A program made the translations under genes and the position numbers. The notes beneath the pieces are model-generated. The model was not told the origin of the DNA, did not search any database, and saw only the letters and a program-made list of their open reading frames with translations. A stretch of 40,819 nucleotides of DNA from a virus: IMG/VR virus record IMGVR_UViG_3300028030_000003, positions 1 through 40,819 of that record. The stretch is one strand, 5' to 3'. This document shows, in pieces, positions 10,964 through 18,225 of this stretch (the stretch's first letter is position 1; the number at the start of each line of letters is the position of its first letter).

Positions 10964-11848
10964 TTATTTATTTAAAAATTTAACTGCTTCTGGAAAGCTC
11001 TCACCTGTTTGTAACATTCTAATATCTATTGCGTCAAACGAAGCTCCACATCCGTGGCAATAAGCAAAATTCCCTGTAATCTGCATTGACGGGCTTTTGT
11101 CTTCGTGGTCTGGACTTATACATCTAATTAATTTCTCACTCGGGCTATTTAATAAATCCCTAATTGGGAATTGTTTTGCTCTCTCTATCTCGGGAGAATT
11201 GAAATCAATTTTTCTTTTTTTATTCCAATCAACAATCCTTCTCGTTAAATTTTTAATTTGCCTCTTTCCTCCTGGCGTCGGATTTTTTTCATAAGCCTCA
11301 ACCATTTTTTGGAGTTTCTTTTTTTCATCTTCTAGTGTTGGTGGTTTTCCTAAATATTGGTTTGTCAAATACGGCTCTAAAATTTCCCACGCTGTAAATT
11401 TTGCAATTGGTGTTTTATTTTCCCACCAATGATAAAGTTCGTGATATGGATAGGGAGCTTTTATATTTACTAACCCCATATTACTTTTAATATCCAGCTT
11501 ACTGTCATCTCCTCTAGTTATTTTTGCCATTGTTTTGGCTAGGCGTTTATCCCACTTATAAAAAAAATGAAATCCATTTGGCGTTTCCTGAACAGATGTA
11601 GGATTTTCTGTATAAATTTTTTCAGCCATAAGTTTATAATCTGGATGAGTTGGGTCTTTGGTGTCCAGGTCAAAACACATCAAGTTAAATTCCTCTCCTA
11701 ATCTCATCACAACTGTTTGACCTTTTTTGATTGGGACTGTTTTTTTTATTTCCGACCATTTTGGAACGCTAACAATTTTCTTTTTTATTTTTCCATTTAC
11801 TTTTTCATATTTTACGTTCGTGCCAAACAAAACTTTTTTAATTTCCAT
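10964..11848 (-). CDS. Prim-pol-like primase with C-terminal CHC2-type zinc finger
   Basis: 294 residues. The N-terminal 150 residues resemble the bifunctional primase-polymerase (AEP) fold: LMCFDLDTKDP gives the acidic DxD-like pair, followed by ETPNGFHFFYKW and DIKSNMGLVNIKAP. A Lys-rich helical linker leads to a C-terminal zinc finger (CISPDHEDKSPSMQI then YCHGCGASFDAIDI) of the CHC2/DnaG kind, where residues C..H..C..C would bind zinc. It makes primers for the phage fork, next to the helicase gene. DnaG carries this finger at the N-terminus, so the order here is reversed and the polymerase type differs. Confidence 0.82.
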   Translation of the reverse strand: MEIKKVLFGTNVKYEKVNGKIKKKIVSVPKWSEIKKTVPIKKGQTVVMRLGEEFNLMCFDLDTKDPTHPDYKLMAEKIYTENPTSVQETPNGFHFFYKWDKRLAKTMAKITRGDDSKLDIKSNMGLVNIKAPYPYHELYHWWENKTPIAKFTAWEILEPYLTNQYLGKPPTLEDEKKKLQKMVEAYEKNPTPGGKRQIKNLTRRIVDWNKKRKIDFNSPEIERAKQFPIRDLLNSPSEKLIRCISPDHEDKSPSMQITGNFAYCHGCGASFDAIDIRMLQTGESFPEAVKFLNK

Positions 11849-11865: not shown

Positions 11866-13833
11866 TTAAATTTTAAACGAGTTGTCTTCTGTCGGTATTC
11901 CTCCTTGGTACCAGTCCGTTGCTCCTTCATATTGTCCTCTCTCGGCGTCAAAGTCAACTATAATATTTCCACTTGCAAAAGGTATTCTTGTTTTTTGTAT
12001 GTAAAATTCTGTCCTATTCTCTGCCCTGATAATTGTTCCGTCCGATGTTTCATCTGCTTCAACTTCCATTGCCTCCCTATTTCTCCAAAGATGAATTGTG
12101 GTGGTAGCATTTTGAGGAATAGCTTGGGCGTCTTTAAAACTTTCATCAGTCGGCTTTTTCCCTTCCAGTTTTCTATAATGAGCAAGCAAAATTATTCTTG
12201 CTGATGTTTCTTTGACAATCGTGGATAATCTTCGCATAAAACTTTCAATCTCTAATTGCCGATTGCTTTCTGAATAAGATAAATAGTGAAGGTGGTCAAT
12301 AATAATTAAATCCTGCGTTTTTGTTGCTTCTCTAATATCATCTAAAATTTTATCAGGGGTGGCTTCAACTCTTCCTCTTCTCCAGGTCAACCCCTTGTGA
12401 ACTGTTTTGTGTTTTTTTAGTTTTTTAAAATAACTTTTTAGCAGGGTTTTGTCAATTGCTCCTGTCAAAAATGCTTCAAGCGGGAATTTCTTTTTTCCTT
12501 CCTCGTATCTTAATCTGTTTATTGAAAAATAATGCTGTACTTTTTTTGAATTTACAAAATGGTCTTCCAGCATATAATATAAAATCTTTTTATTCTGCAA
12601 ACCAACATTAAAAGCTATATCTCTTGCCAAGGAGGTGTTGTGTGTTACAGTTCCGTCTTTCAATAAAAATCTTCCGTCGCCAGACAATTCAAATCCTGCA
12701 TACTTTCCTTTTTTTAAATTTTTTATTTTAAATCCTGTATTCTGCCACCCAGACTTTGCTGTCCATTTTTTGGCTTTTAATCTTTTAAAAGGTATTTTGT
12801 TGAAATCACCTACAATCAATACCCTCCAATATGTACTACTAAATTTTATTTTTTCAATTTTCCCAATCTTTTTATTTATTGAAGTTCTAAAGCCTAGGCT
12901 ATCTGCTAATAATTTAATGTCTAAGGCAAATTTTTTGCTTTTCTGTGTTATCTCACAAACATTTTTTAATATATATCCGTCAGTATCTAATATACCAGCT
13001 AACAATTCCCTTCTTTGTTTTAAACTAGACATTAAATATTTTTTAGGTATATGTCTGTTATTAAATAAATTTAATCTCCTGAACTCATCAATTAATCTGC
13101 TGTTTATATTTTTTCTATCAACAACTGCAAATGTTATTTTTTCATTTCTTTGTACTATGGAAAAATCAGACAATATTTTTTTTATTTGTTTTCTAACCTT
13201 TTTCTTTTTACTCCCCATACTAAATGTTATTGTACCCTCTCGTTGGTGTCCGTCGCCCAGCCACGCACCTAACACATAAGGATGAACTGATAATTTTTGT
13301 TTAGGCAATTCTCTTGCGACCTTGAAACCCTTCCATAAATGTTTAAAATTTTTAGTTTGTTTAAAATATTTCTTTAAACTAATATCAATTATTTCCCCCG
13401 TAACTGTATGTCTTAAAGTTAAAATATGAGCACTATTTACTATATAATTATCTCCGTAATTTTGCTGTATCTCAAACATTTCATCTTCGCCTGAAGTAGT
13501 GCCTAATACAAATCTAGGTTGATTGTCTGCCCCCATTAACTTTTCACCAACTTTAATATTTTTAATTTTTTTTATATTTCCGTCGGCCATAACAACCTCG
13601 GTATTAGGGTCAAAACACTTCCCCGTACCAGTGCTTCCTCCAACTACAATTAATTCTGCTGGGAATATTCCAATTAATTTTTCATCAAGGAAGGGAAGGC
13701 CAAAGTGTATTATTTTTTTAGGGGTCATCTCAATTAAATCTTTTTCGGTTTCAATTGTCAATTCCTCATCCGTCAAAGATAAAAAATCTGGTTTCATCGC
13801 CTCCTTAGCCTCCTCAATGATTTGGTTGCTCAT
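11866..13833 (-). CDS. DnaB-type replicative helicase interrupted by an intein
   Basis: 655 residues before splicing, 328 after. The extein is a RecA-fold helicase: Walker A GGSTGTGK (65-72) continuing as TSLARD (400 on) once the intein is removed, Walker B LIIIDHLHYL (509-518), and an ARIILLAHYR strand later. The N-terminal helical domain of full DnaB is missing, so this is the short phage form. It starts 2 bp after the initiator stop and is followed by the prim-pol: a complete initiator-helicase-primase module. Until the intein is excised, the P-loop is split and the enzyme should be inactive. Confidence 0.9.
   Translation of the reverse strand: MSNQIIEEAKEAMKPDFLSLTDEELTIETEKDLIEMTPKKIIHFGLPFLDEKLIGIFPAELIVVGGSTGTGKCFDPNTEVVMADGNIKKIKNIKVGEKLMGADNQPRFVLGTTSGEDEMFEIQQNYGDNYIVNSAHILTLRHTVTGEIIDISLKKYFKQTKNFKHLWKGFKVARELPKQKLSVHPYVLGAWLGDGHQREGTITFSMGSKKKKVRKQIKKILSDFSIVQRNEKITFAVVDRKNINSRLIDEFRRLNLFNNRHIPKKYLMSSLKQRRELLAGILDTDGYILKNVCEITQKSKKFALDIKLLADSLGFRTSINKKIGKIEKIKFSSTYWRVLIVGDFNKIPFKRLKAKKWTAKSGWQNTGFKIKNLKKGKYAGFELSGDGRFLLKDGTVTHNTSLARDIAFNVGLQNKKILYYMLEDHFVNSKKVQHYFSINRLRYEEGKKKFPLEAFLTGAIDKTLLKSYFKKLKKHKTVHKGLTWRRGRVEATPDKILDDIREATKTQDLIIIDHLHYLSYSESNRQLEIESFMRRLSTIVKETSARIILLAHYRKLEGKKPTDESFKDAQAIPQNATTTIHLWRNREAMEVEADETSDGTIIRAENRTEFYIQKTRIPFASGNIIVDFDAERGQYEGATDWYQGGIPTEDNSFKI
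12637..13617 (-). mobile_element. Intein with LAGLIDADG homing endonuclease in the helicase P-loop
   Basis: 327 residues (73-399 of the precursor). It begins with Cys73 (CFDPNTEVVMADG, splicing block A), has a block-B-like NSAHIL, and ends VTHN followed by Thr400, giving the Cys nucleophile, penultimate His, terminal Asn and hydroxyl +1 residue. Two LAGLIDADG motifs are present: VLGAWLGDGH (about 187-196) and LLAGILDTDGYI (about 277-288), so the homing endonuclease looks intact. The insertion lies between Lys and Thr of GTGK|T, a conserved site favoured by inteins in ATPases. Confidence 0.95.
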
Positions 13834-13834
13834 T

Positions 13835-14665
13835 TTATTTATTATTTATTTTTAATTGTAACCTGGTATAATTTTTCCAAAACTCATTCGGAGTAATATA
13901 TGCTGGCATATAGCCCTTATTCATCTGGCTGAAAATATAATCTAATTTTTTCTTCGGGTCATCCTGCCAATAATATTTTAATAAGTTTTCCATTGCTCTT
14001 CGCTCTGTTTTATTCAATGGGTTGAGGGCTCTATTGTATTTCTCTTTCCAATATAACATCATTTTTAATATGGGGTCAACCTTTATCGGCTCTTTTCCTT
14101 TTTTAACTCTGGCCCTGTTTGTAAAGGCTCTTGCATTTCTCCCAATTGGTTTTTTTTCTATTCCTTTGTAGCCAGCACCTTGCTTATTTATTAAGGCCTG
14201 CAACTTATCTCTTTTCTTTTTCTTTTCAGCCTCCTTTTCTTTTTCTTTTCCAACAAAAACATCATTATCAGCAAAATTTTTAATTTTGCCCTTATTATTA
14301 TCTTTGTTACTATTAATATCTTTATTACTTATAGGGCTGATTTTCCCACAGTGGGTTTTTCCCACAGTGGGTTTTTCCACAAGTGGCTTTTTATCATAAT
14401 TTATGTAATAAACCATTCGACCACTAGACTTTCTTATTCTTTGCAAATATCCTAATTGTTCCAACTCCTTAATAGCTGTTTTTGTTGAGTCAATTCCGCC
14501 AGCATTATCAAGGGCAATTCTTTTGACTGAAAATTGCCAATCACTTGGCTTGCTGTAAATATAACAATAAACACCCTTTGCCTTCCAACTTAATTTTTTA
14601 TCGTTTAGAACTTTATTGTTTATCTGGGTAAAGCCTGTTGATTGTTTGTTTAATGTTTGCTTCAT
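13835..14665 (-). CDS. Replication initiator with winged-helix N-terminus
   Basis: 276 residues. Residues 10-85 (FTQINNKVLNDKKLSWKAKG, IALDNAGGIDSTKTAIKELE, LGYLQRIRKSSGRM) form the winged helix of phage replication-initiation proteins. The middle is low-complexity and basic. The C-terminal 70 residues are helical and may contact the helicase. Its coding sequence contains tandem 16-bp repeats and an AT-rich tract (14272-14387), as lambda O contains ori. The repeats encode a KPLVEKPTVGKTHCGK stretch. The helicase gene follows after 1 bp. Confidence 0.82.
   Translation of the reverse strand: MKQTLNKQSTGFTQINNKVLNDKKLSWKAKGVYCYIYSKPSDWQFSVKRIALDNAGGIDSTKTAIKELEQLGYLQRIRKSSGRMVYYINYDKKPLVEKPTVGKTHCGKISPISNKDINSNKDNNKGKIKNFADNDVFVGKEKEKEAEKKKKRDKLQALINKQGAGYKGIEKKPIGRNARAFTNRARVKKGKEPIKVDPILKMMLYWKEKYNRALNPLNKTERRAMENLLKYYWQDDPKKKLDYIFSQMNKGYMPAYITPNEFWKNYTRLQLKINNK
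14272..14387. other. Putative replication origin: iterons and AT-rich tract inside the initiator gene
   Basis: Three tandem units with 16-bp period: TTTTCCCACAGTGGGT at 14341-14356 and 14357-14372, then TTTTCCACAAGTGGC at 14373-14387. Each carries a dyad (CCCAC-A-GTGGG, or CCAC-AA-GTGG). The adjoining 14272-14335 is very AT-rich, suitable as an unwinding element. Iterons plus an AT tract within the initiator gene copy the layout of lambda ori in gene O. The third unit also fits the loose DnaA box TTWTNCACA. Confidence 0.75.
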
Positions 14666-14674
14666 ACTTTTATT

Positions 14675-14752
14675 TTAATATTTTAACACCTTTTTTTGAA
14701 TTGCACTTTTTACATAAGGTTTGTAGATTAAATGTTTAATCAGGTCTAGCAT
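14675..14752 (-). CDS. Possible 25-residue peptide upstream of the initiator
   Basis: A short open frame (MLDLIKHLIYKPYVKS...) ends 9 bp before the initiator start. Basic and amphipathic. The leader AAAATAATAAATG resembles those of real genes here, but nothing else supports translation. It could act as an upstream regulatory frame. Confidence 0.3.
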   Translation of the reverse strand: MLDLIKHLIYKPYVKSAIQKKVLKY

Positions 14753-14784
14753 TTATTATTTTTATTTATTTAATCATTAAATAC

Positions 14785-14913
14785 AAAAAAACCAATATTG
14801 GAAGGCTAATAGGCTGTATGTGATAGAACGGTCCAAACTTCCGCTTTGCCATATTCAGCCAACCAATATTGGTTTCTTCGTTCGGATGTAGTCGCTATCA
14901 CACGACATTTATA
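14785..14913 (-). ncRNA. Candidate structured small RNA in the replication region
   Basis: Begins about 7 nt after a consensus -10 (14920-14925) and ends in CCAATATTGG followed by seven T. The palindrome ACCAATATTGG occurs twice (near 14791-14801 and 14862-14872), so the upstream copy can pair with the downstream copy to make a terminator stem or fold on itself. TGTGATAG near 14895 pairs with CTATCACA near 14820, enclosing the middle. A 28-codon open frame (start 14852, end 14766) runs through it, so a peptide cannot be excluded. No known RNA family was recognised. Confidence 0.55.
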
Positions 14914-14919
14914 TTTTCT

Positions 14920-14948
14920 ATTATATATTACTTTTTAAATCTCGTCAA
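14920..14948 (-). promoter_or_regulatory. Strong promoter for the candidate small RNA
   Basis: Minus strand: -35 TTGACG (14943-14948), 17-bp spacer, -10 TATAAT (14920-14925). One mismatch to consensus. It lies just after a terminator and faces a region with no long gene. Confidence 0.85.
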
Positions 14949-14954
14949 TAGTAA

Positions 14955-14963
14955 TTATCCACA
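14955..14963 (+). promoter_or_regulatory. DnaA box
   Basis: TTATCCACA, an exact match to the strong consensus DnaA box, between the small-RNA promoter and the terminator and about 570 bp from the iterons. It could recruit host DnaA to the phage origin or couple the promoter to DnaA level. A single 9-mer can occur by chance; location makes it more likely real. Confidence 0.55.
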
Positions 14964-14971
14964 AATAAAAC

Positions 14972-14999
14972 AAGCCCTTAAAATCAATTTTAAGGGCTT
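14972..14999 (-). terminator. Bidirectional intrinsic terminator
   Basis: Perfect 12-bp stem AAGCCCTTAAAA/TTTTAAGGGCTT with a 4-nt loop. On the minus strand it is followed by GTTTTATTT and on the plus strand by ATTTTTT. It ends the operon that finishes with the 103-residue gene at 15045. The region 14678-15044 otherwise has no recognisable gene. Confidence 0.88.
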
Positions 15000-17886: not shown

Positions 17887-18047
17887 TTCAACCTCCCATA
17901 TTGAGTTGGCGTTCTTGGTTCCGCTCCTGCGATGAGAATTGGAACTGCAAACATTGCTATAATCATTAACCCTACAACCAGGGCAATAAAAACACTGTAC
18001 TTGTCTTCTTGACTTATCTTGATAAGACTTGTCTTAATTATTATCAC
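17883..18047 (-). CDS. Small single-span membrane protein of the lysis region
   Basis: 54 residues from a GTG start at 18047. A basic N-terminus (IIIKTSLIKISQEDKY) leads to one transmembrane helix (VFIALVVGLMIIAMFAVPIL) and a short polar C-terminus. ATGA overlap with the 8-Cys gene supports it as real. The position downstream of endolysin and holin candidates suggests an accessory holin or antiholin. No ATG gives the full frame, so the GTG start is inferred. Confidence 0.6.
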   Translation of the reverse strand: MIIIKTSLIKISQEDKYSVFIALVVGLMIIAMFAVPILIAGAEPRTPTQYGRLK

Positions 18048-18225
18048 GCCCAGGCGTGTCATAATTACTTTTGAAGTATCCGTGGGTAGCTTCCATTATT
18101 CCAAGCTAAATAAAGGGGGAATATTTAGCTTGGAGCAACGACAACTACTCCACTAATCCCCGCCACAACGATATTCAATTGAAGCAGGGTGGAGTTCTCA
18201 ATCCCAAAAATACAAAGACAAAATA
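18048..18225 (-). other. Intergenic region with a 12-bp stem hairpin and micro-ORFs
   Basis: Holds a perfect 12-bp inverted repeat CCAAGCTAAATA/TATTTAGCTTGG near 18101-18133 with a C-rich 9-nt loop on the minus strand. No T-run follows, so it is not a standard terminator. Two short open frames flank it: one ending in the hydrophobic NIVVAGISGVVVVAPS without a clear start codon, and one of 20 codons starting at 18096. Neither is firmly supported. Confidence 0.5.

Follow-up and report, generated by a model that had tools for sequence, protein, structure and literature searches.

The window, that is, the whole stretch of DNA analysed here, is a virus record of 40,819 nt, and all evidence on it is computational. 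A direct repeat occurs at both of its ends and, given this repeat, its map is probably circular. All recognised genes of the window lie on the minus strand. An intergenic gap of 379 bp, bordered by an upstream minus-strand operon on one side and by a replication operon on the other, holds a leader locus, the elements of which are all located on the minus strand, the DnaA box excepted. The features of this locus and of the replication operon are given below, where P1 and P2 are the two helices of one fold (P), and T is the terminator-like hairpin of the other.

14972–14999, no strand assigned: hairpin terminator of the upstream minus-strand operon, with a 12-bp stem and a 4-nt loop; its T-run was called on the plus strand
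14955–14963, plus strand: perfect DnaA box TTATCCACA, 6 nt upstream of the −35 element of the leader promoter
14920–14948, minus strand: predicted leader promoter TTGACG-17-TATAAT, matching 11 of 12 consensus positions
14785–14914, minus strand: leader RNA of about 130 nt, its start inferred from the promoter and its end from the U-run
14895–14902, minus strand: 5′ strand of P1, UGUGAUAG, pairing with CUAUCACA
14880–14886, minus strand: 5′ strand of P2, UCCGAAC, pairing with GUUUGGA
14855–14908, minus strand: possible 17-codon leader frame MSCDSDYIRTKKPILVG, read from the sequence, with its ATG 11 nt behind the −10 element
14852–14877, minus strand: 5′ arm of the terminator hairpin (T5′), AGAAACCAAUAUUGG-UU-GGCUGAAUA
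14832–14838, minus strand: 3′ strand of P2, GUUUGGA, inside the T loop
14819–14826, minus strand: 3′ strand of P1, CUAUCACA, inside the T loop
14785–14811, minus strand: 3′ arm of the terminator hairpin (T3′) with U7 at 14791–14785
14766–14852, minus strand: 28-codon frame of chance-level length
14666–14784, no strand assigned: A+T-rich stretch from the terminator to the initiator gene, GC about 18%
13835–14665, minus strand: initiator gene (HTH_36; PHROG replication initiation)
14341–14392, no strand assigned: three 16-bp iteron-like palindromic repeats TTTTCCCACAGTGGGT inside the initiator gene
11866–13833, minus strand: DnaB-type helicase gene with an intein that carries a LAGLIDADG endonuclease domain
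10964–11848, minus strand: primase-like gene with a CHC2 zinc finger

The terminator of the upstream operon is nearly symmetric and possibly bidirectional. The repeats inside the initiator gene are likely to be the replication origin. Close relatives of the window initiator and helicase were not found in IMG/VR. Elsewhere in the window, a 339-nt gap behind the lysis genes (17887–18225, minus strand) shows a strong fold (z −4.8) without a promoter or Rfam match. Four perfect TTGACA-17-TATAAT promoters (17276, 10748, 10460 and 8440, minus strand), each 27–29 nt before an ATG, suggest a host with a standard sigma-70-type factor.

The original prediction, made from the letters of the window, described a near-consensus promoter facing about 130 bases that end in a palindrome and seven T, and both elements were found again on the minus strand, the promoter at 14948–14920 and the U-run directly behind the hairpin. 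By weighted score, the promoter is the fifth best site of the window (13.5 bits), and the GC content is 43% in the transcribed stretch versus 18% in its flanks. The distance from the leader end to the initiator start is 119 nt, and no good promoter was found in this interval (14666–14784), the best site of which scores 8.4 bits and is equalled by 99 window sites. The perfect DnaA box said to lie just upstream is indeed there and is the sole perfect one in the window. The palindrome CCAATATTGG occurs in exactly two copies (14792–14801 and 14863–14872), as had been stated; the wording that ACCAATATTGG is present twice is literally true of the plus strand only, and the second copy reads UCCAAUAUUGG in the transcript sense. 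A role of the palindromes as DNA operators was considered and rejected, there being two copies in all and none at other promoters. The outer stem TGTGATAG/CTATCACA is also present (14895–14902 and 14819–14826).

The folding of this RNA clearly exceeds chance. The stretch 14914–14780 folds at −46.7 kcal/mol compared with a shuffled mean of −25.9 kcal/mol (z −6.5), and none of 200 shuffles reaches that value, so the proposed comparison with shuffled controls came out in favour of a structured RNA. Two structures are concerned. In the hairpin T, the arms stand about 40 nt apart and are followed by U7; in a scan for long-loop U-hairpins, it ranks first among 1099 U-run sites of the window. In the other structure, P1 and P2 pair the 5′ part of the RNA with the loop of T at −22.6 kcal/mol, a value attained in 9 of 5000 dinucleotide shuffles and at 17 of 5803 equally spaced genomic positions. 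Both folds of the earlier two-fold claim beat shuffles, and P2, a second helix of 7 bp that had not been listed, adds strength to it.

The mutual exclusion of these folds, which was also claimed, holds in a modified form. The helices of P and T are interleaved (1:3 against 2:4) and use different bases, and they would be incompatible by nesting and sterics rather than by nucleotide sharing; complete exclusivity is presumed. Since the stems are long and the linkers at one junction or at both are short, P and T would hardly coexist in full. When folding of the growing transcript was predicted, P prevailed until nt ~115, and T appeared only once the last bases were present. Of the two folds, T taken by itself is the stronger in each member examined.

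Searches for sequence relatives of the leader gave little. Rfam returned no matches at gathering score in the window or for the leaders of its relatives, and DNA similarity with phage and plasmid records was restricted to A+T-rich promoter stretches. Pattern scans of IMG/VR with the RNA, the palindrome pair and the apical loop found nothing or chance matches in repetitive or coding DNA. No terminase relatives were found in bacterial genomes. Distant relatives of the phage were obtained via terminase-based searches, and several of them, namely G004, L023, G003 and G005 with its sibling G006, carry a promoter-like site and a long-loop terminator hairpin ahead of the initiator gene or operon.

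One such arrangement belongs to G004, reached by a search for DnaA boxes and HTH_36 genes among the terminase relatives. Its order is a perfect DnaA box, 6 nt, the promoter TTGATT-17-TATAAT, the leader, a gene of 78 aa and the initiator. The leader contains a 21-bp hairpin with U7 (z −4.85), and its 5′ part pairs with the hairpin loop through TGTCTAA/TTAGACA and CAACAAG/CTTGTTG, sequences unrelated to those of the window. A topology scan of 590 kb placed the window first and L023 third; in L023, a 67-aa gene begins 12 nt beyond the end of the element and is followed by two small frames and then a DnaD-like initiator gene. A second topology scan found G008, where the element is present without an identified initiator. 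The initiators of G003 and G005 were pointed out by protein comparison, and each is directly preceded by a sequence resembling a promoter and by a strong hairpin with a long loop and a U-run. Interleaved pairing in G003 consists of TGGAAC/GTTCCA and CGATCAA/TTGATCG. G005 and G006, which have an identical leader, show no significant P pairing in comparison with shuffles.

By dinucleotide shuffles, the p-values for P are 0.0025 in the window, 0.0075 in G004, 0.0105 in L023, 0.003 in G008, 0.037 in G003 and 0.63 in G005, and those for T are 0.0005 in five members and 0.004 in G003. L023 and G008 were selected by structure and hence are not independent; the fair tests of P are G004, G003 and G005, for which Fisher's method gives about 0.008. 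The order of folding, P and then T, is also predicted in G004, L023, G003 and G008. The leader hairpin ranks first or second among the U-run sites of the contig in five relatives (first in G004, second in G003 and G005), and the better-ranked site in G003 and G005 belongs to the same locus. This hairpin lies no more than 300 nt ahead of the initiator gene or operon in G004, G003 and G005 (p about 0.004, 0.048 and 0.009, respectively). A covariation-type count of pairs, which the original prediction had proposed and which covers L023 and G008 only, gave two double changes, and 147 of 500 shuffles equal that. Several scans came before the pattern was recognised, and single p-values need caution; the evidence least touched by selection is the position ahead of initiators and the spacing of the DnaA box.

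Only 3–18 nt separate the U-run from the next start codon in G003, G005, L023 and G004; there is no room for a promoter after the U-run in these four phages, and the gene would therefore have to be reached by read-through. The control consisted of six cultured phages whose initiators are the nearest, a seventh such phage being without annotation; they have 0–53 nt before the initiator gene, which means that such initiators do not in general have this leader.

Several other structures were noted in the related phages. In G001 (L005, 13309–13516, minus strand), there is a structured RNA of about 207 nt (z −5.8) with the promoter TGTTATACT and a local terminator. The phage has a single perfect DnaA box, which is located about 70 nt upstream; as a homologue of the leader, this RNA was rejected, having a local terminator and a different fold. 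In G003 (L063, 1985–2085), two perfect DnaA boxes in inverted orientation flank another long hairpin (z −6.6), which immediately precedes the initiator leader. G008 (L072, 19190–19330) has a pair of long inverted repeats that interleave, AAATCATTATTTTGA/TCAAAATAATGATTT and CTGGACTTCTTGGAAA/TTTCCAAGAATCCAG, and this is the strongest long-loop hairpin of its contig. A group I intron was found in a related phage contig (L008, 9773–9990). The sole new contig from a scan with the L023/G008 stem-base pattern, L077, proved to be a chance match in coding DNA and was discarded.

The perfect DnaA box is situated 6, 6 and 7 nt upstream of the −35 element in the window, G004 and G003, respectively, and no box occurs at that place of the promoter in G005, L023 and G008. 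The chance of a perfect box in a given 4-position slot is about 2e-4. In the window, the box is reversed relative to transcription. Such a position next to the −35 element probably lets host DnaA act on the leader promoter and, by analogy with other promoters, DnaA bound there would add host control of the initiator transcript.

In our opinion, the RNA is fairly probably a cis-acting 5′ leader of the initiator–helicase–primase transcript that carries a conditional intrinsic terminator, i.e., an attenuator. RNA polymerase would start at the promoter adjoining the DnaA box, and the 5′ end of the nascent leader would pair with the future terminator loop through P1 and P2. As the last ~20 nt emerge, the more stable hairpin T would compete with P. 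If T wins, transcription would stop at U7 and leave the ~130-nt RNA only; should P hold out, or should T5′ be blocked in some other way, transcription would continue into the initiator gene. The supply of initiator, and hence phage replication, would thereby be limited. That termination happens and is regulated, that P serves as an antiterminator and that DnaA has any effect are parts of this scheme that we infer. The balance might be tipped by a ribosome occupying one of the short leader frames, by a protein that binds RNA, for example the initiator itself, or by intrinsic kinetics.

As should be the case for an attenuator, the promoter lies upstream and the gene downstream on the same strand with the terminator between them, both in the window and in its relatives; the window hairpin with its U-run exceeds chance, and an alternative fold beyond chance is present in the window, G004, L023, G008 and G003 and absent from G005. 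A conditional-terminator leader is favoured because start codons lie too close to the U-run in four relatives and sites after the leader in the window are weak. Against it speak G005 and G006 without significant P, and G008, the element of which has no identified initiator; a promoter that escaped detection in the 119-nt gap of the window is possible. Among the three roles first suggested for this RNA, that of an attenuator is supported by the sense orientation of the leader and the recurrence of the layout before the initiators of relatives, and that of an antisense regulator is not, the RNA not being antisense to the initiator.

It is unlikely that the RNA is instead a stand-alone small RNA acting in trans on phage or host RNAs, with the initiator transcribed from another promoter. 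Its strong promoter, compact fold and U7 make it look like a discrete unit, the initiator of the window starts only after the A+T-rich stretch, and G001 has its own stand-alone-looking RNA with a promoter and local terminator; but no phage target scores above the reversed-query null, the window offers no good initiator promoter and four relatives no room for one, and the element holds its position before initiators while its sequence is replaced. A plain, unregulated terminator with a long loop, P arising by chance and the initiator being expressed by general read-through, would agree with T as the stronger fold in every member and with G005, which has T without significant P. This explanation is improbable in view of the 40-nt loop, which is unlike the 4-nt loop of the local terminator at 14972–14999, and of the significance of P in the window, G004 and G003.

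Attenuation driven by an antisense RNA of the pT181/pIP501 type, in which formation of the terminator is favoured by a plus-strand transcript running across the leader, is a known mechanism for plasmid initiators (PMC4981023, PMC5703833) and would suit an initiator leader with a terminator and an alternative fold. We regard it as quite improbable here: over the leader, no plus-strand promoter of at least 9/12 was found, and the best site (6.7 bits) is equalled by 294 window sites. Conservation could also reflect a short coding region, the 17- or 28-codon frame, or peptides as the product, since ATG frames run through the leader in G004 (42 codons), L023 and G003 too. This is very hard to believe: the 28-codon frame, which does exist as predicted, is at chance level (634 of 3000 shuffles hold one as long), the first ATG of the leader stands 11 nt behind the −10 element versus 27–29 nt at four other strong window promoters, and the peptides encoded in different phages show no relationship to each other. 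A coding role on its own was rejected on the former two grounds; the short peptides may still matter as leader peptides for ribosome-controlled attenuation.

Returning to the conditional terminator, its layout, retained with differing letters, suggests an RNA brake on phage DNA replication. We tentatively propose, with more doubt than confidence, a leader family in a lineage of uncultivated tailed phages that is set by topology and not by sequence, namely by two long interleaved helices without shared bases, some members being coupled to a promoter under host DnaA control, so that replication would be set by host replication status and co-transcriptional folding. Attenuation of the initiator would then be an architecture that recurs within one phage lineage in unrelated sequences. 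Regulatory RNAs missed by sequence and covariance searches may be findable by topology and position, and it becomes testable whether nascent-leader folding and host DnaA at the promoter time the start of phage replication. Passages of a review on phage small RNAs make no mention of attenuation (PMC12197685).

RNA control of replication initiators is already well known in plasmids. In pIP501 repR and pT181 repC, leader attenuation is driven by the antisense RNAs RNAIII and RNAI, respectively (PMC4981023, PMC5703833). The locus resembles them in having a replication-initiator leader with a terminator deciding read-through, and it resembles pT181, whose origin is inside the rep gene, in having iteron-like repeats inside the initiator gene. 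It differs from both in the absence of a detectable antisense promoter, in helices interleaved 1:3 against 2:4 without shared bases and in being part of a phage operon that also contains helicase and primase-like genes. Like trp-type attenuators and Salmonella mgtCBR, which has two leader frames (PMC3641672), the locus has alternative folds close to a U-run and, possibly, short leader frames; unlike in trp-type attenuators, the frames here are not conserved in sequence and show no regulatory codon run, and there is no shared strand for which P and T would compete. The lambda OOP RNA, as described in passages of the above review (PMC12197685), is likewise a short phage RNA of the replication region, but it is antisense to cII, whereas the RNA considered here would lead the initiator operon in sense orientation. 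Among the known DnaA-regulated promoters with such boxes are those of mioC and dnaA, and a proposed DnaA-dependent his attenuator joins DnaA and attenuation (PMC5835720, PMC10989985). A consensus DnaA box at the promoter is common to these cases and to the present one, in which, unlike them, the operon is that of a phage initiator, and the candidate box lies 6–7 nt upstream of the −35 element.
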